A stretch of DNA of 37,124 nt from an uncultured Methylophilaceae bacterium (GTDB lineage Bacteria; Pseudomonadota; Gammaproteobacteria; Burkholderiales; Methylophilaceae): positions 1-37,124 of the forward strand of contig CAJQTF010000023.1 in assembly GCA_905618945.1 (NCBI GenBank). The letters run 5' to 3'. The notes under the pieces are model-generated. The model had not been told where the DNA came from and ran no database searches. It saw only the letters and a list, made by a program, of their open reading frames with translations. The translations under genes and the position numbers were made by a program. This document shows, one piece after another, positions 25,313 through 36,875 of this stretch; the stretch's first letter is position 1, and each line of letters opens with the position of its first letter.

Positions 25313-26157
25313 ATACTTATAAGGGAATCCTGTACTTACTTTTTGGTACCGTAGTCTGGGGTTTAATTTGGTACCCATACCGACTTTTGGCAGACGTTGG
25401 TATATCGGGCGTATATTCTAGCTTACTTAGCTTTAGCTTCACCTTATTGTTAGGATTATGTGTTTACAAACCCAGTAACCTTTCAAACTTTAAGCATATA
25501 AATTTTTGGATTTATGCATTGGTTCAAGGGGTCACTAATATTGCTTTTGTATTAGCAGTTATAGATGGTGAGTTAGTTCGGGTTATGCTTTTGTTTTTCT
25601 TATCCCCAGTTTGGACAATTTCTTTTTCATTTTTATTTTTAAAAGAGAAAATATACTTTAAAAATATTGTAGCTGCTATTTTGAGTTTATTAGGAGCATT
25701 TATAGTTCTTTGGCAAGATGGATTTTCTTTATTAAGTTTAGACATAAGTGATATTTATGCAATTATTGGCGGTATTGGTTTTGCTTTAAGTAATGTTTTA
25801 GCAAGACGTTTCAATAAGTTAACTATTAAAGACAAGTCATATGCAGTTTGGATTGGTGTAATAATAATTGCACTAATATCAGCTATATTATTTCCTGTAG
25901 AGTTTAATTCTCCTAGTCTAGACTTTAAATCTATTATTATTTTAATTTTATTAGGTCTTATAATGCTGCTTGCAACGATGGTTGTACAGATTGGTCTAAC
26001 GTTAGTAGAAGCAGTTCGAGCTAGTCCAATATTTTTATTCGAAATAGTGGTTGTGGGTTTATCTGGTTACTTTTTGGCTAATGAATCATTGTTAGTTAAA
26101 GATTTTATTGGAGGTGTATTTATTATTTTAGGGGTGTTGATCTCAACTCGAAAATAA
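25297..26157 (+). CDS. DMT/EamA family transporter, probable non-standard ATT start
   Basis: This inner-membrane transporter of the drug/metabolite superfamily has about ten hydrophobic segments in two EamA repeats. The first conventional start is TTG at 25387. Starting there would remove the first membrane segment, which is clearly encoded upstream (YKGILYLLFGTVVWGLIWYP). Beginning at ATT 25297, behind AAGGA, restores it and gives 286 residues, typical for EamA. EamA features include WTISFSFLFLKEK and, in the second repeat, SPIFLFEIVVVGLSGYFLANE. The substrate is unknown. It overlaps the end of miaA by 16 bp and the converging glycosyltransferase by 15 bp. A sequencing error that removed an ATG is the alternative. 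Confidence 0.8.
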   Translation: MFKKLDTYKGILYLLFGTVVWGLIWYPYRLLADVGISGVYSSLLSFSFTLLLGLCVYKPSNLSNFKHINFWIYALVQGVTNIAFVLAVIDGELVRVMLLFFLSPVWTISFSFLFLKEKIYFKNIVAAILSLLGAFIVLWQDGFSLLSLDISDIYAIIGGIGFALSNVLARRFNKLTIKDKSYAVWIGVIIIALISAILFPVEFNSPSLDFKSIIILILLGLIMLLATMVVQIGLTLVEAVRASPIFLFEIVVVGLSGYFLANESLLVKDFIGGVFIILGVLISTRK

Positions 26158-28005
26158 ATCTCTATAGATTTTTTCTAAGTTAGTGGCGAACATATTAGGC
26201 CTAAATAGAATGGAGTTTTTTTTACCCATGATGATTTTTTGTTTAATTCTTAAAAGTTCTTTTGGATTTTTATATAACTCAAGGGCTTTGTCATAATATT
26301 TAGCATTATCTTTTGTAATAAGCTCTTCACAATCAATTTCTTTTAGAATACTTCCAGCAACTCGACTAGCAAAGCTTTTGCCTGATAAAGTCAGGACAGG
26401 GCATTCTGCCCATATTGCATCGCTTGTGGAGGTGTGTGCATTATAAGGATATGTATCTAAAAATAAATCAATAATTTGATGACGGTTTATATGATCATCA
26501 ATTGAGACTTTTGGTGCAAATCTAATCCTATCCCCCTCAACACCATTAAGTTTTGCATGTAGCCATAAATTCTCTTTATATAGATTGTTTGAGTCTAGAA
26601 GCCAAAGATTTGCTGAAGGGCAGCTCTTAAGAAGCTCTAACCATAAATTAAATTGATCTTTGGTAATTTTTATTGGCTGACTAAAAGATGCGTATATAAA
26701 AGTATTATCGTTAAATCCATAATCTTTTTTAATCTTTGGGATAAGTTTGGGCCTGTTGGAGATATTAGGCTGGTAGCAGTGGGGGAGATATAAAACCTTC
26801 TCAGCATAATCATTTATATTGCTATCAGGAATGATATATTTATCCGCTAAAATAAAATCAAATAGTGGTTTCTTATAATGAAACCCCATTGTTCCAGCAA
26901 ACCCAAGCCAATTTATATGGTATCGAGCAGGTTTGTAAGCAGCAATGAACGACCTGCTATTTTGTGTGAATCCTGATAAATCCACCAATATATCAACTTT
27001 TTCATCTCTTATTAATTGGGCACCTTGAGCATCACTTTCGTTAGATAGGTTAATAAATTTACAATCTAATTTTTTAAATGCTTCGTGCTCAATTGAGGGT
27101 TCATCAGGACCTGAATAAAATAACTTAATACTAAATATCTTTCTATTATGGCTTTTTAATACATCAAGAATTAAGTAATAAAGAGGGTGACTTCTAAAGT
27201 CGGCTGAGAGATAGCCAATTGTAATCTTATTTTTTACGGGGGTACTTATCTTATTAAATGACTTTATTTTTTTTATCTGCTCGGACCAATTCGTCGCAAC
27301 TCTTAAATGGTCTTTATTATTTAAATTGGGCATTGATAGAACGGTAAATGGCGATACCTTTCCCTTATCATCATTGATAATATGATTTTTAATATCATTA
27401 AATAAGGTATCAATATTCTCCCATTCGCATACATGTTGCATCAAATGGATTAGCTCTACTTTGGAGTGAATTGATTTGGGATTTATTTCTAGGGCTTGCT
27501 TATAGCAACTGATTGCATCTTCATTTTTACTAAGACGGCGATAAGCATTACCTAAGTTATTGAATGTATCTGCATCTGGTTTTAATGAGTTATTTTTTAT
27601 TGAGTTTTGATATGCCTCAATTGATTTATCAAATTGATTTAGAGATAATAAAGCATTTCCGTAGTTAAATAAATAATCTGGATTGTTAGGGTAGTGAGTG
27701 AGAACTTCTTCAAAGCAATCTTTAGCTAACTTATAGTTTCTATTGATTTGATACTCATTCCCAATCTGCTTAAGACAGAAGCATAAACCTTCTCTTATAC
27801 TTTCGTTTCCATTCATTATAAGAAGTAATTTTCTAAAATATATGGCTGCTTCTAGAAAATTATTATTTGTCGCATAAAGGTTGGCTATTTCAATTTGAGT
27901 AGAAATATCATTTGGATTATGAGCTAATACCTCTTTTAGCAGAACTAAGGCGCCTTCTATATCACCCATTCTTTCTTTTTTTTTGGCTTTCGAAATTAAA
28001 TCCAT
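26143..28005 (-). CDS. TPR-containing O-GlcNAc-transferase-like glycosyltransferase (GT41)
   Basis: The protein joins N-terminal tetratricopeptide repeats (about residues 1-185, for example FNNLGNAYRRLSKNEDAISC) to a GT41 domain related to eukaryotic O-GlcNAc transferase and bacterial SPINDLY-like proteins. Catalytic-domain signatures are IGYLSADFRSHP with the conserved histidine, FIYASFSQPIKITKDQF with a lysine matching the UDP-binding one, and DLFLDTYPYNAHTSTSDAIW. It probably transfers a sugar from a UDP donor to protein Ser/Thr, but target and sugar are unknown. I start it at the ATG at 28005, behind AGGTGA; a GTG two codons earlier is possible. Only 6 bp separate it from the upstream cfa stop, so it is likely the last gene of the lipid-modification operon. 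Confidence 0.9.
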   Translation of the reverse strand: MDLISKAKKKERMGDIEGALVLLKEVLAHNPNDISTQIEIANLYATNNNFLEAAIYFRKLLLIMNGNESIREGLCFCLKQIGNEYQINRNYKLAKDCFEEVLTHYPNNPDYLFNYGNALLSLNQFDKSIEAYQNSIKNNSLKPDADTFNNLGNAYRRLSKNEDAISCYKQALEINPKSIHSKVELIHLMQHVCEWENIDTLFNDIKNHIINDDKGKVSPFTVLSMPNLNNKDHLRVATNWSEQIKKIKSFNKISTPVKNKITIGYLSADFRSHPLYYLILDVLKSHNRKIFSIKLFYSGPDEPSIEHEAFKKLDCKFINLSNESDAQGAQLIRDEKVDILVDLSGFTQNSRSFIAAYKPARYHINWLGFAGTMGFHYKKPLFDFILADKYIIPDSNINDYAEKVLYLPHCYQPNISNRPKLIPKIKKDYGFNDNTFIYASFSQPIKITKDQFNLWLELLKSCPSANLWLLDSNNLYKENLWLHAKLNGVEGDRIRFAPKVSIDDHINRHQIIDLFLDTYPYNAHTSTSDAIWAECPVLTLSGKSFASRVAGSILKEIDCEELITKDNAKYYDKALELYKNPKELLRIKQKIIMGKKNSILFRPNMFATNLEKIYRDLFSS

Positions 28006-28011
28006 GCTCAC

Positions 28012-29220
28012 CTAAATATTTTTATCTCTATTCATTGGTTTAGCTAATAAAATATGTGCATCATTGATAACTTTTTCTCTGAAGCCTCCCTCACAGTAAG
28101 CAAAGTAATAAAGCCACATTCGAATAAATACTTTATCAAACCCTAAAATTTCAATATTTTTTAAATTTTTAATAAAGTTTTCTCTCCAATGCATTAATGT
28201 TGTTGCATAGTGGTCTCCAATATCCTCAACATCTTTGACAATCATATCTGAAGATTTAGTTATACTATTTTGCAGTATATTAAGAGATGGTATGCAGCTG
28301 CCTGGGAAAATATATTTTTGAATAAAGTCGACTGACTTTAGCGCAGCATGATATTTTTGATCTCTAATAGTTATAGCTTGAATAAGAGCCATCCCATCTT
28401 CCTTTAAAAGTGAATTAACTTTGCTAAAGTACTCATCATAATATTTATGGCCAACAGCTTCAATCATCTCAATAGAAACTAACTTATCGAAACTTCCTTG
28501 AAGATCACGATAATCTTTAAATACAACTTTAATCTTTTTATTTAGCTTTAGTTTATTAATTTTGTTTTTAGTATATAAGAACTGCTGCTTTGAGATTGTT
28601 GTTGTTGTTACCTTACAGCCATAATGGGTAGCAGCATAAATGGCAAAGCCGCCCCAACCAGTACCAATTTCAATAACATGGTCTGTTTTTTGTATTTTTA
28701 ATTTTTCACAAATAATTTTAAGTTTATTAATCGATGCACTATTTAATGTATTTTTTTTACCATCATAAATTGCAGAAGAATACATCATAGTAGGGTCTAA
28801 AAATTTACTAAAAAAATCGTTACTGAGATCATAATGCTTAGCTATATTTTGAAGACTATTTTTTTTATTATTACGTCTTAAATAGTGAAGAAATCTTAGA
28901 ATAGGGCTAACTACTAAATTAAATGAGCTCTCAATACTTTCTGTTAGTTCAGAATTTATAGCCATGATTCTAATAACATTAGTTAGGTTGTTTGTTTCCC
29001 AAGTATTTTGGATGAATGAATCGGCTGCACCTATAGAACCACCGATAAGAACATCGAAGTAAAAACTATTATTCCTAACAAAGATAGTGCTCGAAAGCTT
29101 TCTATCATCCCCAAAAACATGTTTCTTTTTGCCATCGACTATTGTTATTGATCCATACTTTATTTTTTTTAGTTGGTTAAAAAAGATACTTTTACATATT
29201 GAGTTAGATATTTTTTTCAT
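28012..29220 (-). CDS. Cfa-family fatty-acid methyltransferase (type with altered bicarbonate site)
   Basis: The protein is homologous over its full 402 residues to cyclopropane-fatty-acid synthase, which methylates unsaturated acyl chains in membrane lipids using SAM. The start at 29220 is fixed by an ATGA overlap with the DUF1365 gene. The SAM loop EIGTGWGG is at 184-191, followed by KDYRDL and VDFIQKYIFPG. Compared with E. coli Cfa, the bicarbonate-site Cys139 is Ser149 and His266 is Gln281, while Glu239 (Glu254), Ile268 and Tyr317 (Tyr338) are kept. This variant pattern is, as I recall, usual for the Cfa-like proteins paired with DUF1365, so its product may not be a simple cyclopropane. 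The upstream FAD oxidoreductase and desaturase are likely partners. Confidence 0.92.
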   Translation of the reverse strand: MKKISNSICKSIFFNQLKKIKYGSITIVDGKKKHVFGDDRKLSSTIFVRNNSFYFDVLIGGSIGAADSFIQNTWETNNLTNVIRIMAINSELTESIESSFNLVVSPILRFLHYLRRNNKKNSLQNIAKHYDLSNDFFSKFLDPTMMYSSAIYDGKKNTLNSASINKLKIICEKLKIQKTDHVIEIGTGWGGFAIYAATHYGCKVTTTTISKQQFLYTKNKINKLKLNKKIKVVFKDYRDLQGSFDKLVSIEMIEAVGHKYYDEYFSKVNSLLKEDGMALIQAITIRDQKYHAALKSVDFIQKYIFPGSCIPSLNILQNSITKSSDMIVKDVEDIGDHYATTLMHWRENFIKNLKNIEILGFDKVFIRMWLYYFAYCEGGFREKVINDAHILLAKPMNRDKNI

Positions 29221-29954
29221 TTTTTTGGGTGCGGATAAAAAGGAATTTTTTTTAGTGTTAATAAAAAAGCATTCCAATAGATTGCCAAAATCGTCCTAAT
29301 AGTTGTTGGGGGAAACATTAACAGGATTTTATTTAAAGCCCAGGGCGTCCATGCTTTTCTTGTTAATCTTAAAGTAGCATTAAAATTAAAATTATCTTCT
29401 TTAAAGCTATCCATTGAGACGTATAAAAAGTCTTTTGGTTCTGTAAATTTCCAGTTATATTTTATATCCATTGGCATAAATGGAGACACATGAAATTTTT
29501 TATCGAAGTTAAAAATCTTCGTACCACCTTTCATATTATTACAATCATGAACATAGGCATACTTCTCGTTCCAAGGTGTGTTTGTGATATGGGAAACAAT
29601 AGCAATTAATTTTTCTGATTTATTAAAGCAGTAATAGAAACTTACAGGATTAAAACAATAGCCAAAATATTTACCATTTGTTAGCAGAAAAATTTTTCCA
29701 TCAACTTCACTACCAATTCTTTTTTTAATTAAGCCCACAACAGATTTTTTTATATTTTTCTTCTTGCTAGTGTAATAATCTGATTTATTTATTGAGCCTA
29801 TATTAGTTTTGTTATAACTCCAGAATATATTTTTTTTAAACGCGTTAGTTATGTGATCAAGGTCAATAAATAGCATAGTGATTGAATATTTAAAGTGATG
29901 CTTTTTCGGTAAATGCCTCGTGTGTATAACAACTCCTTTATATATTGAATGCAT
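29217..29954 (-). CDS. DUF1365 family protein
   Basis: The 245-residue protein shows the usual start of this family (YKGVVIHTRHLPKKHHFKY), FNPVSFYYCFNK, NTPWNEKYAYVHD and FHVSPFMPMDIKYNW. No signal peptide or catalytic motif stands out and the biochemical role is unknown. DUF1365 genes nearly always sit between an FAD oxidoreductase and a Cfa-like methyltransferase, exactly as here: the oxidoreductase gene abuts it with no spacer and the cfa start overlaps its stop by 4 bp. A role in lipid modification is inferred from that context only. Confidence 0.93.
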   Translation of the reverse strand: MHSIYKGVVIHTRHLPKKHHFKYSITMLFIDLDHITNAFKKNIFWSYNKTNIGSINKSDYYTSKKKNIKKSVVGLIKKRIGSEVDGKIFLLTNGKYFGYCFNPVSFYYCFNKSEKLIAIVSHITNTPWNEKYAYVHDCNNMKGGTKIFNFDKKFHVSPFMPMDIKYNWKFTEPKDFLYVSMDSFKEDNFNFNATLRLTRKAWTPWALNKILLMFPPTTIRTILAIYWNAFLLTLKKIPFYPHPKK

Positions 29955-31196
29955 TTACTTAATAGCTTCTTTAAAGTATTTAATTGCATTGTATGCACTA
30001 CTTATGCCATCTTCATGGAAGCCATTACCCCAATATGCACCTGCATATCCTGTTCTATTCACTCCTGAAATAATGCCGTAGTTTTTTTGAGCCTCAACTG
30101 ACCTTAATGAAAATAAAGGATGATCATAATTAATTTTTTTTAAAACTTTTTTCGGATTTATATTTCCATTGTCATTTAGTGTTACTAATATAGTTTGTTG
30201 TGTTTTGAGATTTTGAAGAATATTCATATTATATGTAAGTGCAATTGGCATATCATCAGTAGAATCAATATTATAATTCCAAGCCGCCCAAGTTAATTTA
30301 TTTTTTGGCATTATTGACACATCAGTATGAAGCGTTACTTTATTTTTAGAGTATGGAATTGATGAAAGAACTTCTTTTTCCTGAGCTGATGGATCGCTAA
30401 TTAATTTTAGGGCTTCGTCGCTATGGCATGCGAAAAAAATGTAATCAAATATTTCGATACCGTCTGAGCTTGTTATTTCTACTGAATCATTATTCCTTTT
30501 AACAGCCTTAACTGGACAATTCAATCTAATATTTTTTTTAATTGAAGCGGTTAGTTTTTCGACGTACTCTTTTGAGCCATTAGTTACTGTCAACCATTGG
30601 GGTCTATCATTAACGTTCAACATACCATGATTGTTAAAAAATTTAACGAAGAATACTGCTGGAAACTTAAGCATTGAGTTGATATTTGATGACCAGATTG
30701 CAGAGCCCATGGGTAAGATATAGTTTTTGCAAAAATAATCAGAAAAATTATTCTGTTTTAAAAAGGTTTCAAGTGATATTTCAGTTTTGGCGGATAGTAA
30801 AGTTAGTGCTACTTTGTTAAATTTTATAATCTCATAAATCATTTTTATGAATTTATAATTAAAGATATTCTTTCTTTGCGAAAATAAGGTATTCAGTGTG
30901 GTGCCGTTATACTCAAAGTTTCTGTATTTTGAGAATACACTAAAGCTCATGTCACTTTTTTCATACTCAACATTTAATTCATCTAATAAACTTGTAAATA
31001 ATGGGTATGTTTTTTTATTGAACACAATAAACCCAGTGTCTACATTTATTTTTTTGCCGTGGCTAATAATTTCATGTGTATGTGAATGTCCACCTAATCG
31101 ATTATTTTTTTCGAAAAGGGTAATATCGTGATCTTTTGAAAGGCTATAGGCTAAACTATTGCCCGAGATTCCTGAACCAACAATGGCTATTTTCAT
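29955..31196 (-). CDS. FAD-dependent oxidoreductase of the amine-oxidase/desaturase fold
   Basis: This 413-residue flavoprotein starts with a Rossmann FAD-binding motif (VGSGISG, residues 6-12) and Glu29 for ribose binding, followed by RLGGHSHTH. The C-terminal FAD contact YAGAYWGNGFHEDGISSA is clear. Family members sit next to DUF1365 and Cfa genes and are annotated as NAD/FAD-binding or amine-oxidase-like proteins. Action on acyl chains is inferred from neighbours, not shown. It lies 5 bp after the desaturase gene and directly abuts DUF1365. It could equally be a hydratase or saturase-type flavoenzyme. Confidence 0.92.
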   Translation of the reverse strand: MKIAIVGSGISGNSLAYSLSKDHDITLFEKNNRLGGHSHTHEIISHGKKINVDTGFIVFNKKTYPLFTSLLDELNVEYEKSDMSFSVFSKYRNFEYNGTTLNTLFSQRKNIFNYKFIKMIYEIIKFNKVALTLLSAKTEISLETFLKQNNFSDYFCKNYILPMGSAIWSSNINSMLKFPAVFFVKFFNNHGMLNVNDRPQWLTVTNGSKEYVEKLTASIKKNIRLNCPVKAVKRNNDSVEITSSDGIEIFDYIFFACHSDEALKLISDPSAQEKEVLSSIPYSKNKVTLHTDVSIMPKNKLTWAAWNYNIDSTDDMPIALTYNMNILQNLKTQQTILVTLNDNGNINPKKVLKKINYDHPLFSLRSVEAQKNYGIISGVNRTGYAGAYWGNGFHEDGISSAYNAIKYFKEAIK

Positions 31197-31201
31197 ATGC
31201 T

Positions 31202-32146
31202 TTAGGGCTTAACTTTATTAGACTCTCTAATATTGTTTGAAACAGTTCTAATATCCCAAATAATCCCAAAGATAGATAAAAGTTTTAGGAGGTAGTAGGT
31301 TAAATCAATTTCCCACCAGTAAAAACCTTGCTTTGCAGATCCGGGAAAATGATGATGGTTATTATGCCAGCCCTCCCCAAATGTTAGCAATGCTACTATA
31401 AAATTATTACGACTCGAATCCTTAGTGGCATATCTTTTATCACCCCATAAGTGAGCAACAGAATTTACGAGGAAAGTGGCATGGTAAAGTAATATTGTTG
31501 ATACAATAAAGCCCCAACTTAGAAGCTGAAGGCCGTTTGTATTAAGTTCTGGGTATTTGTTGTTAATAAATTCACCAAAATAAAATAACCCGATACAGGT
31601 AAAAATAGGGACCAGAATATCAAATCTATCCACCAACCTTAATTCTGGAAACCTTGATAGCTCCTTAACAAGTTTGGTATGGGTTATAAAATTTGCTTTT
31701 GTTAAAAACCAACCCGTATGACTCCATAAAAAACTATGTGCTTTAGGTGAGTGCTGATCTTTTTCAGTATCAGAATGCATGTGGTGCCCTCTGTGGTGAG
31801 CAGCCCACCATATTGGACCTCTCTGAACAGCTGAAGCGCCAATAATAGCAAAGATAAATTGAGCGACTCTAGTGGTTTTGAATGTTTTATGAGAAAAATA
31901 TCTATGATAAAATCCTGTAATAGCAAACATACGAATAGCAAACATCATTATGCAGACAAGTATTGCAAAGCTACTAAAGCCAACATAAAATATAGAGATT
32001 ATAGATATATGAATTAAGAAGTAGGGGATTGCTCTTGCCCAATCAATTTGTTTGTTATTGATTGATTTTGATAGATAGTTTTTTTCAACGATTGAGTTAT
32101 CGAACCAACCAATAAAGTGCTTGAGTATTTTGATTGATATATTCAT
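31202..32146 (-). CDS. Membrane fatty-acid desaturase (delta-9 acyl-CoA desaturase type)
   Basis: This 314-residue membrane di-iron desaturase has the three histidine boxes: HRYFSH (81-86), HHRGHH (117-122) and HNNHHH near residue 260, the last followed by FPGSAKQGFYWWEID. Four membrane segments flank the boxes. It would introduce a double bond into acyl chains using oxygen, creating the olefin that Cfa-type enzymes methylate. The electron donor is not encoded nearby. The start overlaps the stop of the lipocalin gene by 4 bp. Confidence 0.95.
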   Translation of the reverse strand: MNISIKILKHFIGWFDNSIVEKNYLSKSINNKQIDWARAIPYFLIHISIISIFYVGFSSFAILVCIMMFAIRMFAITGFYHRYFSHKTFKTTRVAQFIFAIIGASAVQRGPIWWAAHHRGHHMHSDTEKDQHSPKAHSFLWSHTGWFLTKANFITHTKLVKELSRFPELRLVDRFDILVPIFTCIGLFYFGEFINNKYPELNTNGLQLLSWGFIVSTILLYHATFLVNSVAHLWGDKRYATKDSSRNNFIVALLTFGEGWHNNHHHFPGSAKQGFYWWEIDLTYYLLKLLSIFGIIWDIRTVSNNIRESNKVKP

Positions 32147-32658
32147 CGATGATTAATTAGTTGTAGTTTATTTTTATCATAACCCATTAGTGAAATCATA
32201 TCGATAAGTCTTTCAAGTTCCTGCTTCGGAATCGTTTTCTTTTTTGACATAAGCCAAACATAATCAAGAGAATCTCTTGCAACAATAGTTGTTTGATAAT
32301 CCTCGTCTAAATATACAATTTTATACTGAGCTTTTATCGGCCATATAAACTGCATACCCCATAAGGCATTATTTGATCCAGGTATTACAAATCCTTTTGG
32401 CCTATAGGTTTTTAATGGGCCATCAAAAGAGCCATGATTGAATGTAAATGTCGTAGCAATTGTTCCATCATCGTTAAGCTTGTAAGATTCTATTGCGTTG
32501 AATGCATCTTTCTCAATAAATGTTGGGATATTAGCAATGACATACCAATCACCCATGAATTTATCAATATCAACTGATTTAACCAGTTCAATTTTGTTTG
32601 TATTCATTGTGCATCCAAAAATTAAAAAAATTAAAAAAAATGTTTTAATAACAGTCAT
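32143..32658 (-). CDS. blc: Outer-membrane lipocalin lipoprotein, Blc-like
   Basis: The 171-residue bacterial lipocalin has a lipoprotein signal (MTVIKTFFLIFLIFGC, Cys16 lipidated), the lipocalin signature MGDWYVIANIPTF, and later YKIVYLDEDYQTTIVARDS and YVWLMSKKK. E. coli Blc binds lysophospholipids at the outer membrane, and a similar lipid-carrier role fits this operon. Residue 2 after Cys is Met rather than Asp, so outer-membrane sorting is expected. The stop overlaps the desaturase start by 4 bp. Confidence 0.93.
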   Translation of the reverse strand: MTVIKTFFLIFLIFGCTMNTNKIELVKSVDIDKFMGDWYVIANIPTFIEKDAFNAIESYKLNDDGTIATTFTFNHGSFDGPLKTYRPKGFVIPGSNNALWGMQFIWPIKAQYKIVYLDEDYQTTIVARDSLDYVWLMSKKKTIPKQELERLIDMISLMGYDKNKLQLINHR

Positions 32659-32671
32659 TTATATCCATTTA

Positions 32672-33292
32672 TTAAATAAGTTTATATATAAGATTACCGA
32701 TAGGTGTCGGTGATCTTAGACCTACTAAGCTCATATTATCGTCATACCAAACGTCAATTATAAATACTTCATCTCCATCTTTATTAGCTTGAATTATGTA
32801 ATGATGAGTGTTAATTTCTTGGCCCTGAACATTTTTTGCTTCAATACCGGTATTTTTAATTACAACATCTAACCATTCAGCATCCTGTGAGTTCATTAAT
32901 TTTTTTTGATCTAATATTTTGGGGTTCCAATAAGCAAAAGTCATAATACATTCTGGCAAGCTCTTTTCATTACCATTTAAAGACACTTTCAATTTACCAT
33001 TACTTTTGCCTCCATCAACATTAAAGACCTCGCCATCATCATTAGTTTTACTTACAATTGATTTTAAACAATCTTTATTCCATGTTTCCTTACTATCGTG
33101 TTCGTAAGAAAAACTCATAAACATAAATTTAAATTTAAACTTTGCAAGACTATGCGATTCTTTCCCTACTTGCTTGAATGAATGTTTTCCAATAATTTCA
33201 TCATTTAAAATTACATCAAAGTCCCATTCTTTAGCAATTAAATTACTAGAAAACAAACTAAGTAGCAGAGTTAGAATAAAGCTATATTTCAT
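32672..33292 (-). CDS. Exported protein of the DUF6134-like family
   Basis: The 206-residue protein has a signal peptide (about 1-20, LLLSLFSSNLIAKE). It then shows WDFDVILNDEIIGKHSF, ETWNKDCLKSI, ECIMTFAYWNPKIL and the end pattern LRSPTPIGNLIYKL. This looks like the family I know as DUF6134, found in the same lipid-modification clusters, but I assign it from memory and not from a search. The mature protein appears beta-rich and soluble in the periplasm. It is flanked by the lipocalin and DUF1295 genes with gaps of 13 and 25 bp. Function unknown. Confidence 0.85.
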   Translation of the reverse strand: MKYSFILTLLLSLFSSNLIAKEWDFDVILNDEIIGKHSFKQVGKESHSLAKFKFKFMFMSFSYEHDSKETWNKDCLKSIVSKTNDDGEVFNVDGGKSNGKLKVSLNGNEKSLPECIMTFAYWNPKILDQKKLMNSQDAEWLDVVIKNTGIEAKNVQGQEINTHHYIIQANKDGDEVFIIDVWYDDNMSLVGLRSPTPIGNLIYKLI

Positions 33293-33317
33293 ATCTTAAT
33301 TAAGTCCTAATTTTTTA

Positions 33318-34085
33318 TTAATATCTATTTTTCGAAGGCCATGGAAAAAAAGCAGATGTATTTTTAATATACTTTTTGTAACCAGGCCTTCTATTGACTA
33401 TTGTAGATTCTAGTAGTTCAGCTCCTGATACCTTAAATAGCAATATACTCATTAATATTGGTGAGACTATAGTAAACCAGTACCCACTTCCAATTGATAT
33501 TAAATAAAATCCCCACCAAACAAGGAACTCACCAAAATAATTAGGGTGCCTTGAATATTGCCATAAACCTTGATCCATAACTTTGTTAGATTTCTTTGAT
33601 AAGAATTTTTTTAATTGCTTGTCTGCAATTGTTTCGTAGGTAATTCCAAATAATACTATTAATAAGCCTATTTTATCCAATAATGAATAAGGCCTTACAT
33701 CTATAAATGATGCAATTAGGGGTGCTGCGATTATAGCCGCCCAAATAGCTTGCAAACCAAAAATTATATAAATACTTTTGTACTTAAAATAAGGCTCGTT
33801 ATTATTTCTAATAACTTGATAGCGAGAATCTTCAGGCTTACCCCAATTCCTTTGAGTTAGATGGGTTGTTAATCTAATAGTCCAAATAAAAACCATTGTG
33901 GCTATTGCTAAATGCCTAGATGATGATGTATCCAAAGAAACTAGACAGGTAATGGTGACGACTACGAAAAATAAGCTCCACATTGAGTCTACTAGATTAA
34001 CGTTTTTAGTGAACAAGCTTAAAACCCATCCTATCAAAGCGAAAGTAAGCAAATTACCAAGTACTAAAATATATAAATCAAGCAT
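33318..34085 (-). CDS. DUF1295 membrane protein (steroid 5-alpha-reductase/ICMT-like)
   Basis: The 255-residue integral membrane protein has six or so hydrophobic segments and the family signature SRHPNYFGEFLVWWGFY, plus NVNLVDSMWSL near the N-terminus and KQLKKFLSK in a loop. DUF1295 proteins share the fold of 5-alpha-reductases and isoprenylcysteine methyltransferases. A reductase acting on a lipid double bond is a reasonable but unproven guess. Start and stop of neighbouring DUF2878 overlap it by 8 bp. Confidence 0.92.
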   Translation of the reverse strand: MLDLYILVLGNLLTFALIGWVLSLFTKNVNLVDSMWSLFFVVVTITCLVSLDTSSSRHLAIATMVFIWTIRLTTHLTQRNWGKPEDSRYQVIRNNNEPYFKYKSIYIIFGLQAIWAAIIAAPLIASFIDVRPYSLLDKIGLLIVLFGITYETIADKQLKKFLSKKSNKVMDQGLWQYSRHPNYFGEFLVWWGFYLISIGSGYWFTIVSPILMSILLFKVSGAELLESTIVNRRPGYKKYIKNTSAFFPWPSKNRY

Positions 34086-34590
34086 TTTTTGATAGTTTAT
34101 TTGTAATAATAAGAAGAAGGGGGGTAATAATTGCCCACCCTATCGCAATTACTATAATTGCGTCAGGGGATAGAATTGATACTGCCTCAAGCTTTTCACC
34201 GGCTAAATAGGCTAATGGGCCTCCTATAGCGCCAAATAAAGCAGATAGTTCTATTTTTTTCTTTAACCAGCTAAGGCTTGAATTAAGGGTGATTGCAAAT
34301 CCCATCCATAAAACGATTATCCATAAAGGTGTTATGGAGTAAGGCCATCCATGATCAGCATATAGAACCATTTCATTTTTTAAAAGAAATCCATCAAATA
34401 AGAAACCAATTATGCCTGCTATTAACACAATCTTTAACTCAGTTTTTTTATCTTTTGTTAGATAAAAATGAAATAAAATAACAATCAGTGATATAGCCAC
34501 GGCAGCATGAGTTTCGTTTATTGCAGCCCCGAGGATGCAGACAAACCAAACTAATTGAAAGGATATGAAATTTATTATTTTAGAGGTCAT
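34078..34590 (-). CDS. DUF2878 membrane protein
   Basis: The 170-residue protein is almost entirely hydrophobic, with about six short membrane segments. Family-typical patterns include FQLVWFVCILGAA, GFLFDGFLLKNEM, PLWIIVLWMGFAITLNSSL and GGPLAYLAGEKL. I start it at the ATG at 34590 because it overlaps the TGA of the upstream methyltransferase as ATGA; the longer frame from 34620 lies inside that gene. DUF2878 genes travel with DUF1295, Cfa-like and lipocalin genes; the role is unknown. Confidence 0.92.
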   Translation of the reverse strand: MTSKIINFISFQLVWFVCILGAAINETHAAVAISLIVILFHFYLTKDKKTELKIVLIAGIIGFLFDGFLLKNEMVLYADHGWPYSITPLWIIVLWMGFAITLNSSLSWLKKKIELSALFGAIGGPLAYLAGEKLEAVSILSPDAIIVIAIGWAIITPLLLIITNKLSKNA

Positions 34591-35618
34591 TTTTTGAACA
34601 GGTAGTGAACTACCTTCCATTCCTTCCCATTTTCATAACCCCATAATTCAGCGCAAGACATAAAGAAAATTCGCCACCGTTGGAACCATTTTTTTGAATC
34701 ATTTTTGCCATAAATATTTTTCAATACTGGCATAACTTTATTTTTATTCACATCTATATTTTTTAACCATGCATTTGCGGTCATTTCATAATGAACGCCA
34801 GACCAAGACCATTGGTCAATAATTTTTAAATCATCTTGAAAAAATAATGGTAAATCCTCTGAAGGCATCATGCCACCAGAGAAAAAGTATTGACTCATCC
34901 AGTCATCACTTTCCTCAACCTCAAATAAGTAGGGTTGGCTTTTGTGGACAAATATATGCATGAAAAATAGTCCATCTGGTTTAAGCCAAGAAGCTATTTT
35001 TTTAAATAATTTTTTATGGTTTCTCATATGTTCGATCATTTCAACAGAAACAACCCGATCATAGCTAACTTTAGGGTTAAATTGATTCATATCTTCTGTA
35101 ATTACAGAAATATTTTTTAATTTTCTTTTTTTGGCTTGATCTAGTATGTGCAATCTTTGGGAGGATGAGTTAGATACTGCAGTAATTTTACTTTTAGGAT
35201 ATTGCTTGGCCATCCACAACGTTAAAGACCCCCATCCACATCCAAGCTCTAAAATTTCAAGGCCATTGGTTAGCTTTGCGTGTTTAGATGTAAGCTTAAG
35301 CGATAACAACTCTGCTTCATCTAGATTTTTAGTTTTTTCATTCCAATAGCAAGAGCTATATTTTTTGTGCCTACCCAAGCAATAGTTATAAAACTCCGGA
35401 GGAATTTCGTAATGTTGCTCATTAGCTAACTCTGGCACTTCTGCAATAGACGAAAAATTCATTTTCTTAATAAATTCAATTTTTTCTTGAATATTTTTTT
35501 CAGGATTATCTGAAACGAGAGATTGAATTCTTCTTTTTAGGAGGATTCTGATGCCGTGCCTAATTATAAAATCGGGAATAAGTTTTTTTTCAGCAAGCGT
35601 TATTAAAAAACTGATCAT
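34587..35618 (-). CDS. Second Cfa-family SAM methyltransferase
   Basis: The 343-residue protein belongs to the Cfa/coclaurine-methyltransferase-like group. The SAM loop ELGCGWGSL is at 124-132 and VEMIEHMRNHKKL follows at about 192. Compared with E. coli Cfa it keeps the bicarbonate-site residues that the other copy has lost: Cys90 in YSSCYW, Glu196-His197, His221 in FMHIFVH, and Tyr277 in VHYEMTANAW. The N-terminal segment is shorter than in classical Cfa. It is the first gene of the minus-strand lipid operon, 75 bp downstream of tRNA-Glu. It probably methylates a lipid or small amine; the substrate is unknown. Confidence 0.9.
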   Translation of the reverse strand: MISFLITLAEKKLIPDFIIRHGIRILLKRRIQSLVSDNPEKNIQEKIEFIKKMNFSSIAEVPELANEQHYEIPPEFYNYCLGRHKKYSSCYWNEKTKNLDEAELLSLKLTSKHAKLTNGLEILELGCGWGSLTLWMAKQYPKSKITAVSNSSSQRLHILDQAKKRKLKNISVITEDMNQFNPKVSYDRVVSVEMIEHMRNHKKLFKKIASWLKPDGLFFMHIFVHKSQPYLFEVEESDDWMSQYFFSGGMMPSEDLPLFFQDDLKIIDQWSWSGVHYEMTANAWLKNIDVNKNKVMPVLKNIYGKNDSKKWFQRWRIFFMSCAELWGYENGKEWKVVHYLFKK

Positions 35619-35692
35619 TATATAAATCCGCGTTAATTTCGTTCTTTAATGGAGCCTATAAGCTTTGAAAAAGTTGCATCTTTAATTTAAAT

Positions 35693-35768
35693 TGGTGACC
35701 CCAAGGGGAGTCGAACCCCTGTTGCCTGGATGAAAACCAGGTGTCCTAGGCCTCTAGACGATGGGGTC
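35693..35768 (-). tRNA. tRNA-Glu (anticodon TTC)
   Basis: Read on the minus strand, acceptor GACCCCA pairs with TGGGGTC. The anticodon stem CCTGG/CCAGG holds loop TTTTCAT (anticodon TTC), and the T arm has GGGTTCGACTCCC. CCA is encoded and the length is 76 nt. It points toward the second Cfa-family gene 75 bp away, and no terminator hairpin is visible between them. Confidence 0.97.
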
Positions 35769-35784
35769 GTACTAGAAGTGCGAT

Positions 35785-35813
35785 ATTTTACTATAGATTG
35801 TATGAATATTAAA
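35785..35813 (-). promoter_or_regulatory. Possible promoter for tRNA-Glu (and perhaps the lipid operon)
   Basis: On the minus strand TAAAAT (at 35785-35790) is preceded after 17 bases by TTTAAT (35808-35813), and lies 16 bases before the tRNA 5' end. The -35 match is weak (three of six). It would be back to back with the doxX promoter. Confidence 0.3.
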
Positions 35814-35819
35814 AAAAAG

Positions 35820-35848
35820 TTGGATAAAGATTAAGAGTATTGTATAAA
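35820..35848 (+). promoter_or_regulatory. Probable sigma-70 promoter of doxX-yqaA
   Basis: TTGGAT at 35820-35825 and TATAAA at 35843-35848 are separated by exactly 17 bases. The start codon lies about 32 bases downstream, with AAGGA before it. Spacing and -10 match are good; the -35 keeps the TTG. Confidence 0.5.
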
Positions 35849-35879
35849 TAGTCTTTTATGGTCTTAAAAAGGAAACGAA

Positions 35880-36287
35880 ATGGAATGCTTAAATAAAAAA
35901 CTTGATCAAATTTTTAATAATTTTACCTTCATTACACCTTGGCTACTAAGATTAAGCTTAGGGGTTTCATTTATTTTTCATGGATACGGAAAATTTCCTT
36001 TACCACCACAAAAGTTGATTGATTATTTTGGATTTTCTGAGACTTTAGCTTCTTTTGTTGCTATATCAGAACTAACTGCAGGAGTGCTGTTAATCTTGGG
36101 TGGCTTTATAAAAAGTCACTTAGGCTCGCTGATAACAAGATTTGGAGCAACACTAATTGTTATTATCATGACTGTTGCTTTAGGCTTAGCTCATCGGGAC
36201 TGGTTCATTACCCCTAAATTATTTATGAGTGAGCAAATATTTTTGTTAATAGTCGGGTTATATTTTTTGATAAGAGGTAATAAGTAA
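35880..36287 (+). CDS. DoxX family membrane protein
   Basis: The 135-residue protein has four hydrophobic segments (about 18-35, 50-72, 80-100 and 112-132). DoxX-type patterns include LRLSLGVSFIFHGYGKF and the Glu-containing second helix AISELTAGVLLILGG. AAGGA lies 7-8 bases before the ATG and a 17-base-spaced promoter is seen upstream. The DoxX family includes subunits linked to quinone oxidation and stress membrane complexes, but the function here is unknown. yqaA follows after 3 bp. Confidence 0.9.
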   Translation: MECLNKKLDQIFNNFTFITPWLLRLSLGVSFIFHGYGKFPLPPQKLIDYFGFSETLASFVAISELTAGVLLILGGFIKSHLGSLITRFGATLIVIIMTVALGLAHRDWFITPKLFMSEQIFLLIVGLYFLIRGNK

Positions 36288-36290
36288 AAT

Positions 36291-36875
36291 ATGAGTATTT
36301 TCCAGAAGCTTTACAACAAAACTTTACTTCTAGCTGGGCATGTTAAAGCTAGCTACTATTTATTTGTATTGAGCGTCGCTGAATCATCTTTCTTTCCAAT
36401 ACCACCTGATGTTATGTTGGCACCAATGTGTTTAGCAAAGCCTTCAAAGGTATGGAGGTTTGCATTTATAACTACAATTGGCTCGGTGTTGGGCGGCATC
36501 TTAGGCTATCTGATTGGTAAATTTTCATTTGAATATATTGAGCCTTTTGTTGAAAAGTTTGGATATATGGTTGCCTATCAAAATGCAGTTAATTGGTTTT
36601 ATGATTGGGGTTTTTGGGCGATACTTATTGCTGGATTTTCACCTATTCCTTATAAAGTTTTTACGATTGCTGCAGGCGTTTTGAATATGGCTTTTCTACC
36701 ATTTATTATTGGCTCAATAATAGGGCGGGGATCAAGATTTTATTTGGTTGCATTTTTAGTTAAATTATTTGGGGATAGAATTGATTTTGTTTTAAAAAAT
36801 TATATTGATAAAATTGGGTGGGCGTTAGTTATTTTAATTTTTTTTGGCTTGCTAATAGTTAGCTTTATTCAATAA
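36291..36875 (+). CDS. YqaA-like membrane protein of the DedA/VTT family
   Basis: The 194-residue membrane protein carries the VTT/DedA-type signature: SVAESSFFPIPPDVMLAPM with acidic and proline residues in a re-entrant loop, GSVLGGILGYLIG, and GFSPIPYKVFTIAAGVLNM, then GRGSRFYLVA. DedA-family proteins act as lipid scramblases or flippases for undecaprenyl phosphate or phospholipid, but the YqaA subgroup is not well characterised. It starts 3 bp after doxX and is probably co-transcribed. Confidence 0.92.
   Translation: MSIFQKLYNKTLLLAGHVKASYYLFVLSVAESSFFPIPPDVMLAPMCLAKPSKVWRFAFITTIGSVLGGILGYLIGKFSFEYIEPFVEKFGYMVAYQNAVNWFYDWGFWAILIAGFSPIPYKVFTIAAGVLNMAFLPFIIGSIIGRGSRFYLVAFLVKLFGDRIDFVLKNYIDKIGWALVILIFFGLLIVSFIQ

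Follow-up and report, generated by a model that had tools for sequence, protein, structure and literature searches.

An operon predicted to make dimethylated furan fatty acids in a rhodopsin-bearing genus of Methylophilaceae

What would an operon make that carries two different methyltransferases of the cyclopropane fatty acid synthase (Cfa) family? The question is raised by nine minus-strand open reading frames (ORFs) at positions 28012-35618 of contig CAJQTF010000023.1 (contig 23) from an uncultured Methylophilaceae bacterium, which was analysed as a single stretch of 37,124 nucleotides (the window). Published experiments on Rhodobacter sphaeroides and Rhodopseudomonas palustris genes showed that UfaM, UfaD and UfaO suffice for a monomethylated furan fatty acid (FuFA) and FufM for the dimethylated form: a first methylation is followed by desaturation, then by oxygenation and finally by the second methylation (Lemke et al. 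2020, PMC7380195; this paper, the others cited by PMC number and the Chlamydomonas study below are quoted from the available parts of their text). An initial annotation of the locus had suggested successive methylations and a furan-type product. This suggestion is now well supported: homologues of UfaM, UfaD, UfaO and FufM are all present, and we conclude that the operon very probably directs the synthesis of a dimethylated FuFA on membrane phospholipids.

Transcription runs from the first operon gene, which begins at 35618, to the last, which terminates at 28012. The locus had been described as nine consecutive overlapping genes; all nine are present on the minus strand, but overlaps occur at only four of the eight junctions (4, 4, 8 and 34 bases), with one abutting pair and three gaps (5, 13 and 25 bases). 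The gene set recurs with identical order in relatives and is therefore not a chance assembly. In coordinate order, the Pfam families are CMAS, DUF1365, amine oxidase/FAD (flavin adenine dinucleotide), FA_desaturase, lipocalin, DUF6134, DUF1295, DUF2878 and a second CMAS, and the genes are as follows.

28012..29220, minus strand: UfaM-like S-adenosylmethionine (SAM) methyltransferase, 402 residues, predicted first methylation of the acyl chain (CMAS Pfam 2.5e-82; UfaM clade; S-E-Q-I-Y columns)
29217..29954, minus strand: UfaO-like DUF1365 protein, predicted O2-dependent furan formation (Pfam 7.8e-73; gene order)
29955..31196, minus strand: UfaD-like FAD oxidoreductase, predicted desaturation of the methylated chain (Pfam amine oxidase)
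31202..32146, minus strand: SCD-type membrane fatty acid desaturase, predicted supplier of the unsaturated chain to UfaM (PDB match, His boxes)
32143..32658, minus strand: Blc-type lipocalin with a lipobox-like Cys at the N-terminus (Pfam 1.5e-33)
32672..33292, minus strand: DUF6134 protein with a signal-peptide-like N-terminus (Pfam 3e-39)
33318..34085, minus strand: DUF1295 protein, proposed FufM partner (Pfam 1.9e-63; neighbourhood and genome co-occurrence with FufM)
34078..34620, minus strand: DUF2878 protein (Pfam 1e-40)
34587..35618, minus strand: FufM-like SAM methyltransferase, 343 residues, predicted second methylation on the furan ring (PDB match, tree, identity to Rhodopseudomonas FufM)

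The downstream methyltransferase most likely starts at the ATG at 29220, giving 402 residues; the listed ORF starts further upstream at a TTG. Its closest PDB relative is E. coli Cfa (2.2e-54). In a tree of 147 proteins it fell within a 62-row clade together with five Rhodopseudomonas UfaM proteins (support of 99 in the Shimodaira-Hasegawa-like approximate likelihood ratio test, SH-aLRT), and E. coli Cfa and eight clear stand-alone Cfas, three of them from Rhodopseudomonas, lay outside that clade. To reduce redundancy among near-identical sequences, 75 of the 150 FufM rows entered the tree, namely the window's own, those of loci L034-L135 and 10 from Rhodopseudomonas. Rhodopseudomonas genomes were reached through a FufM scan of named genomes, from which the best 80 of 564 confirmed matches were used; the characterised strain CGA009 was not among these 80, and orthology within the genus was assumed. 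The window UfaM matched two or three copies in each of ten Rhodopseudomonas-genus genomes; these were of three kinds: FufM, a Cfa-like copy seen in most of the genomes and a UfaM-type copy seen in nine. The best match was the UfaM-type copy, at about 1e-80 or better, in nine of the ten, and the tenth (that of L154) showed only the other two kinds. UfaM regions were fetched from five of these genomes (L262-L265 and L269), and in every one UfaD, UfaO and UfaM stand side by side, in the same UfaD-UfaO-UfaM order as in the window.

Alignment to E. coli Cfa confirmed the Ser149 and Gln281 that had been noticed in this copy: Cys139 of the E. coli enzyme is replaced by Ser149 and His266 by Gln281, so that these classical residues of the bicarbonate site are not kept, and Glu239, Ile268 and Tyr317 are retained. 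The combination S-E-Q-I-Y at E. coli positions 139, 239, 266, 268 and 317 was found in 54 of 60 UfaO-linked UfaM copies, with Gln at 266 in all 60. Among a further 20 UfaM from FufM-less genomes, Gln was again invariant (20/20), and position 139 was Ser in 16 and Ala in four. Lone CMAS copies read C-E-H-I-Y in eight of ten rows; the two lone Gln rows are L066, a same-genus copy at a contig edge, and L112, whose UfaO lies beyond the 4 kb rule, and both were counted as lone. Excluded from these counts were duplicate rows and any with fewer than 220 matched residues. At the level of sequence, then, the Ser/Gln pair is a mark of the UfaM clade, and the Gln at the His266 position can help to separate UfaM from Cfa among bacterial CMAS-family genes. 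The pair fits, without proving, a pathway in which the bicarbonate base does not close the methyl cation into a ring. Two same-genus genomes (L270 and L271, from G007 and G020) also encode a stand-alone Cfa whose site is the classical C-E-H-I-Y, and the window's own incomplete genome has a third CMAS match, a 247-residue frame scoring 40.7 bits.

The upstream methyltransferase had been read as a Cfa that keeps its bicarbonate site through Cys90 and His221. His221 is correctly placed, but the window protein reads S88-S89-C90, so the Cys139 column holds Ser89 and Cys90 stands one residue further on; Ile268 is replaced by Phe. Across the FufM rows, the His was kept in 144 of 150 and Phe replaced Ile268 in 132 of 150. 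The best PDB match of this protein was not Cfa but the plant coclaurine N-methyltransferase 6gkv (1.4e-72, versus 1.6e-26 for E. coli Cfa). In the tree it joined a 63-row clade (SH-aLRT 99) with ten Rhodopseudomonas FufM, and it is 46-47% identical to two of these. On this sequence evidence, we take the upstream gene to be a FufM, close to plant coclaurine N-methyltransferases, rather than a Cfa. The two copies thus fall with Rhodopseudomonas UfaM and FufM, respectively, and apart from E. coli Cfa, which contradicts the outcome that the initial annotation had named as fatal to its proposal, two ordinary Cfas; that candidate was rejected on the tree and the active-site residues.

FufM was found at E < 1e-90 in 28 of 31 same-genus genomes including the window's (with broken frames in two, G013 and G029), in four of six genomes from other genera of the family and in four of 24 from other families of the order. 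Twenty-five same-genus FufM loci were fetched, G008 and G015 being left out. All nine genes were present in 10 of these loci (UfaM was in two frames in one and cut by the contig end in one), seven had no detectable DUF6134 (two of them those with broken FufM), one was cut by a contig end, and seven held only FufM-DUF2878-DUF1295-DUF6134. In two of the last group (G005 and G007) a lipocalin-desaturase-UfaD-UfaO-UfaM-TPR (tetratricopeptide repeat) block was found elsewhere in the genome, and G020 has the same second part. The operon splits into two modules, one of FufM, DUF1295, DUF2878 and DUF6134 and the other of the monomethyl pathway with the desaturase and lipocalin. Three genomes of other families in the order (G041, G052 and G058) carried most of the set in the same order.

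A sample of 398 genomes across the phylum was taken as one set for counts of FufM (limit 1e-60), DUF1365 and DUF1295. FufM was present in 33 and DUF1365 in 153; DUF1365 occurred in 30 of the 33 FufM genomes versus 123 of the 365 others (p = 8.6e-11). UfaD and UfaO lay within about 10 kb of FufM in 19 of 32 loci. Three genomes of the genus g134 (loci L131, L132 and L134, in G095, G438 and G419) have FufM with neither DUF1365 nor DUF1295, where FufM is either a remnant or put to another use.

From these data and the published chemistry, the following pathway can be proposed. The SCD-type desaturase, FabA or both would provide a cis-monounsaturated chain (step 0). UfaM would then transfer a methyl group from SAM to the double bond, yielding a methyl-branched trans olefin and not a cyclopropane (step 1); UfaD would introduce a conjugated double bond (step 2); UfaO, the DUF1365 protein, would close the furan using O2 (step 3); and FufM would add the other methyl group to the ring, DUF1295 being proposed either to assist it or to act after it (step 4). 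Gene identity, orthology, linkage and conservation come from our analysis, and steps 1-4 were shown by others in alphaproteobacteria. From these we infer the chemistry in the window organism, its substrate chain and the parts played by the lipocalin, the desaturase, DUF1295, DUF2878 and DUF6134. The likely use of the product is protection of the membrane against singlet oxygen and radicals in a light-exposed bacterium bearing rhodopsin, a gene of which was present in 26 of the 31 same-genus genomes, the window's own included. The whole dimethyl pathway is retained in one operon in small rhodopsin-bearing genomes, where few optional genes are expected to survive.

Would the second methyltransferase really act on the furan? 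If it methylated something else, such as an amine, the operon would make monomethyl FuFA by steps 1-3 as published. Such an activity is compatible with the plant alkaloid N-methyltransferases being the best solved relatives of the window FufM, with the separation of FufM-DUF2878-DUF1295-DUF6134 from the other genes in some same-genus genomes, and with the three FufM-bearing genomes that have no DUF1365. Against it stand the supported clade that the window FufM shares with Rhodopseudomonas FufM and the linkage of FufM to UfaD and UfaO across the phylum, on which an N-methyltransferase was rejected for the upstream gene. Furthermore, the R. palustris FufM, a weakly UfaM-like protein 26% identical to UfaM, converts monomethyl to dimethyl FuFA with no significant methylation of 18:1 in the available text (PMC7380195). 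We therefore regard an amine substrate as unlikely, and benzylisoquinoline N-methylation is not expected in the window organism.

A plain or modified cyclopropane pathway, with cyclopropane acids as the product of the UfaM-like gene and the remaining genes acting on them, has the high CMAS Pfam score of that gene in its favour, and also a precedent among plant enzymes with the same Gln and Ser. A study of cotton describes its cyclopropane synthases as carrying Gln in place of His266 (for one of the three it prints I729); GhCPS1 and 2, which form cyclopropane acids when expressed in yeast, also have Ser instead of Cys139. The idea that the Ser/Gln pair alone excludes cyclopropanation, which went with the initial annotation, does not hold, and we rejected the pair as proof of non-cyclopropane chemistry. 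In the same study, two Agrobacterium proteins, each homologous to one half of the plant synthase, gave no cyclopropane acid in yeast, whether separate or fused; by our inference, this negative result is expected if bacterial enzymes of such type are UfaD and UfaM. With UfaO and UfaD adjoining the UfaM-like gene, a UfaM clade apart from bacterial Cfas, and Cys and His retained in most of the lone copies, a cyclopropane product is very unlikely. Still less credible is a methyl-branched saturated acid made by a methylase and an FAD reductase, with DUF1295 reducing the olefin, presumably akin to the tuberculostearic route. It would draw on the FAD oxidoreductase and on the weak steroid-reductase kinship of DUF1295, both present here; it leaves DUF1365 unexplained, and DUF1295 tracks FufM much more than UfaM. 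DUF1365 was required for furan formation in two bacteria (PMC7380195).

Several observations, besides the activity of the cotton enzymes, count against a furan product itself. The window UfaM is 38% identical to E. coli Cfa over 319 positions and 37-38% identical to Rhodopseudomonas UfaM over 364, so the UfaM assignment rests on score, tree and context. The tree came from a quick search with SH-aLRT support and flagged long branches, and its deep order is unsure. The identity of the window UfaO is low (26-29%). E. coli carrying the Halomonas UfaM gave the UfaM product but also held cyclic fatty acids (PMC12089945, available text). DUF1365 is missing from three of the 33 FufM genomes, where FufM may consequently have other uses. 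No match to PF12973, the family of the R. sphaeroides anti-sigma factor ChrR, was found in the window's own 77.6% complete genome. Taking both sides together, we retain dimethylated FuFA as the predicted product.

Which gene keeps the closest company with FufM? DUF1295 (1e-10) was present in 52 of the 398 genomes: 29 of the 33 with FufM versus 23 of the 365 others (p = 1.1e-25; as the genomes are related, this and the other linkage p-values overstate independence). Among DUF1365 genomes, it was found in 29 of 30 with FufM versus 13 of 123 without. In 21 of 32 loci DUF1295 and FufM are neighbours on one strand, and each of the 12 sampled families contributes at least one such locus. It was seen in 15 of 19 loci containing FufM and UfaO versus none of 29 UfaO loci from FufM-less genomes (p = 3.5e-9). 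These 29 control loci were selected from the 123 FufM-less DUF1365 genomes, 20 spread by hand and nine picked by score and variety, with no random draw. DUF2878 showed no such pattern (6/19 UfaO loci with FufM versus 12/29 without), and neither was DUF6134 enriched (2/19 versus 4/29). The lipocalin (9/19 versus 0/29) and the desaturase (6/19 versus 1/29) were enriched near FufM, which may reflect kinship. Because DUF1295 co-occurs with FufM and DUF2878 lacks this pattern, DUF1295 is the clearest companion of FufM.

The rule is strong, not absolute. When all 123 FufM-less DUF1365 genomes were checked by coordinates (the DUF1365 of one, G127, was not placed), DUF1295 lay beside UfaD/UfaO, within 5 kb of UfaO, in at least three (G151, G206 and G350; loci L142, L302 and L303), none of them among the 29 control loci. 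These three have no FufM at 1e-60, although it occurs in other genomes of their families, f66 and f62; they may have lost FufM, or DUF1295 may have a role needing no FufM. Evidence against DUF1295 being essential for step 4 is that R. sphaeroides made dimethyl FuFA with fufM alone and that the FufM protein worked in wheat germ extract in vitro (PMC7380195). DUF1295 lies directly upstream of FufM in all 11 mapped Rhodopseudomonas loci, so in R. palustris the corresponding gene is probably RPA0923, whose locus number adjoins that of fufM. Deletion strains of RPA0923 are listed in PMC7380195, and no result for them was found in its main text. By Pfam, DUF1295 shows weak kinship to the steroid reductase, PEMT and ICMT families.

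An independent line of evidence comes from Chlamydomonas, where CFA1, CFA2, a DUF1365 gene and a DUF1295 gene were induced under singlet oxygen, all in a SAK1-dependent manner. CFA2 (Cre09.g398700) is annotated elsewhere in that paper as a coclaurine N-methyltransferase, and the word furan does not occur in its main text. The agreement of this set with the bacterial operon is one of gene names and families only, and many other genes were induced as well. In the open-access literature searched, the Chlamydomonas paper was the one listed that names both DUF1365 and DUF1295, and we found none that links DUF1295 to furan fatty acids. DUF1295 is a concrete new candidate partner for the pathway, and one that can be tested. 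Tentatively, and as the less probable side of the question, DUF1295 might be an unrecognised enzyme of dimethyl FuFA metabolism working with FufM in bacteria and algae, and the rhodopsin-bearing surface-ocean bacteria of the window's genus might be a source of the dimethyl furan acids of the marine food web. A copepod study was unable to tell whether furan lipids were eaten or made.

The window UfaD is 39-40% identical to the UfaO-linked copies of three Rhodopseudomonas-genus genomes. UfaO had no solved relative by sequence, and no relative of it was found among viral contigs. In 70 UfaO sequences, H11, R13, D59, N125, Y134, K152 and Y166 were kept nearly everywhere. No His other than H11 was kept at 93% or more (H19 was found in 61/70), and hence a classical multi-His iron site is not obvious.

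The desaturase matched acyl-CoA desaturase 1 in the PDB (4ymk, 4.8e-27), and the His residues of its HRYFSH, HRGHH and HNNHH boxes were 100% conserved in an alignment of 33 sequences. It is the sole PF00487 match in its own genome and in each of the six near-complete same-genus genomes examined. FabA scored above the cut-off in 25 of the 31 same-genus genomes, the window's own incomplete genome being among the six without it. As most of the genus has FabA, unsaturated chains need not come from the desaturase alone there, and we rejected the idea that it stands in for a missing FabA; yet no FabA above the cut-off was found in G041, G052 and G058, which carry the operon but belong to other families. 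We propose that the desaturase supplies the UfaM substrate, in which case the double-bond position that it sets would fix the position of the furan. In DUF6134, C75 and C115 were invariant in 23 sequences, as was His65, which suggests a secreted, disulfide-bonded protein.

The host genome is 999 kb and 77.6% complete, and the guanine-plus-cytosine content of the window is ~29-35% in 2 kb steps. With its small, AT-rich, rhodopsin-bearing genomes the genus may resemble the SAR86 clade, for which no paper on furan fatty acids was found in the open-access literature searched. The operon is flanked by two further features.

26143..28011, minus strand: TPR and glycosyltransferase family 41 protein (OGT/SPINDLY-like; Pfam), tenth gene, abutting the UfaM stop
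35619..35879, no strand assigned: divergent intergenic region, presumed operon promoter

In most loci of the genus, whether the operon is split or not, the TPR/glycosyltransferase-41 gene comes after UfaM. An enzyme of a protein-glycosylating type, as predicted from its domains, is a puzzling companion for the operon, and any link to FuFA is at most putative. A promoter scan of 35500-36000 gave three sigma-70-like matches versus 2.0 expected by shuffling, which is at chance level. Two terminator-like hairpins, one on each strand, lie at 35737-35784 in the divergent intergenic region (two versus 0.3 expected), an odd location. Genes for DoxX and a VTT-domain protein (35880-36875, plus strand) diverge from the operon start and are retained there in three fetched relatives (L034, L042 and L053). 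The window's own genome has paired adjacent rhodopsin genes (G000:C13:48745-50199, minus strand); such pairs recur in several same-genus genomes, and others have single genes.

Among known systems, E. coli Cfa (6bqc; L261) shares the CMAS family and the conserved Glu239, Ile268 and Tyr317 with the window UfaM and differs in having Cys139 and His266 at the Ser and Gln positions and in its separate clade. Plant coclaurine N-methyltransferase (6gkv) aligns with the window FufM over nearly its full length, but in the tree it forms a long branch, of unsure placement, apart from the bacterial FufM sampled. Arabidopsis has homologues of the same four functions in AtUFAMD1, AtUFAO1 and AtFUFM1/LIME1, of which AtFUFM1 (AT4G33110) is 37.87% identical to FufM; unlike in the window, a single protein resembles both UfaM and UfaD and the system is located at lipid droplets, and DUF1295 was not found in the available text (PMC10940516). 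Marine bacteria, including Shewanella putrefaciens and Marinomonas, have long been known to hold furan acids, and an earlier proposed route ran through methylation, a second double bond, oxygen and ring closure; the available text of that review gives no genes and does not name the window's genus (PMC3528120).

Halomonas sp. YLGW01, also a marine bacterium, has consecutive ufaM, ufaD and ufaO genes, and its UfaM product was shown in E. coli; FufM, the desaturase and DUF1295 are not mentioned in the available text (PMC12089945). Apart from this UfaM, the biochemistry of the four enzymes in the available literature comes from two alphaproteobacteria, R. sphaeroides and R. palustris. Their pathway and the window operon have all four enzyme types in common, and the UfaM and FufM clades are shared with Rhodopseudomonas. 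In R. palustris, too, UfaO and UfaM adjoin UfaD, but RPA0924 (fufM) is far in locus number from RPA2569-2571, whereas the window fufM lies in the same operon, which adds the desaturase, lipocalin, DUF6134, DUF1295 and DUF2878 to the published set. The pathway itself is thus known, while its operon form, host genus and DUF1295 link appear to be new within the open-access literature searched: the full pathway stands with a desaturase in one operon across a rhodopsin-bearing genus, and splits into two modules in some relatives.

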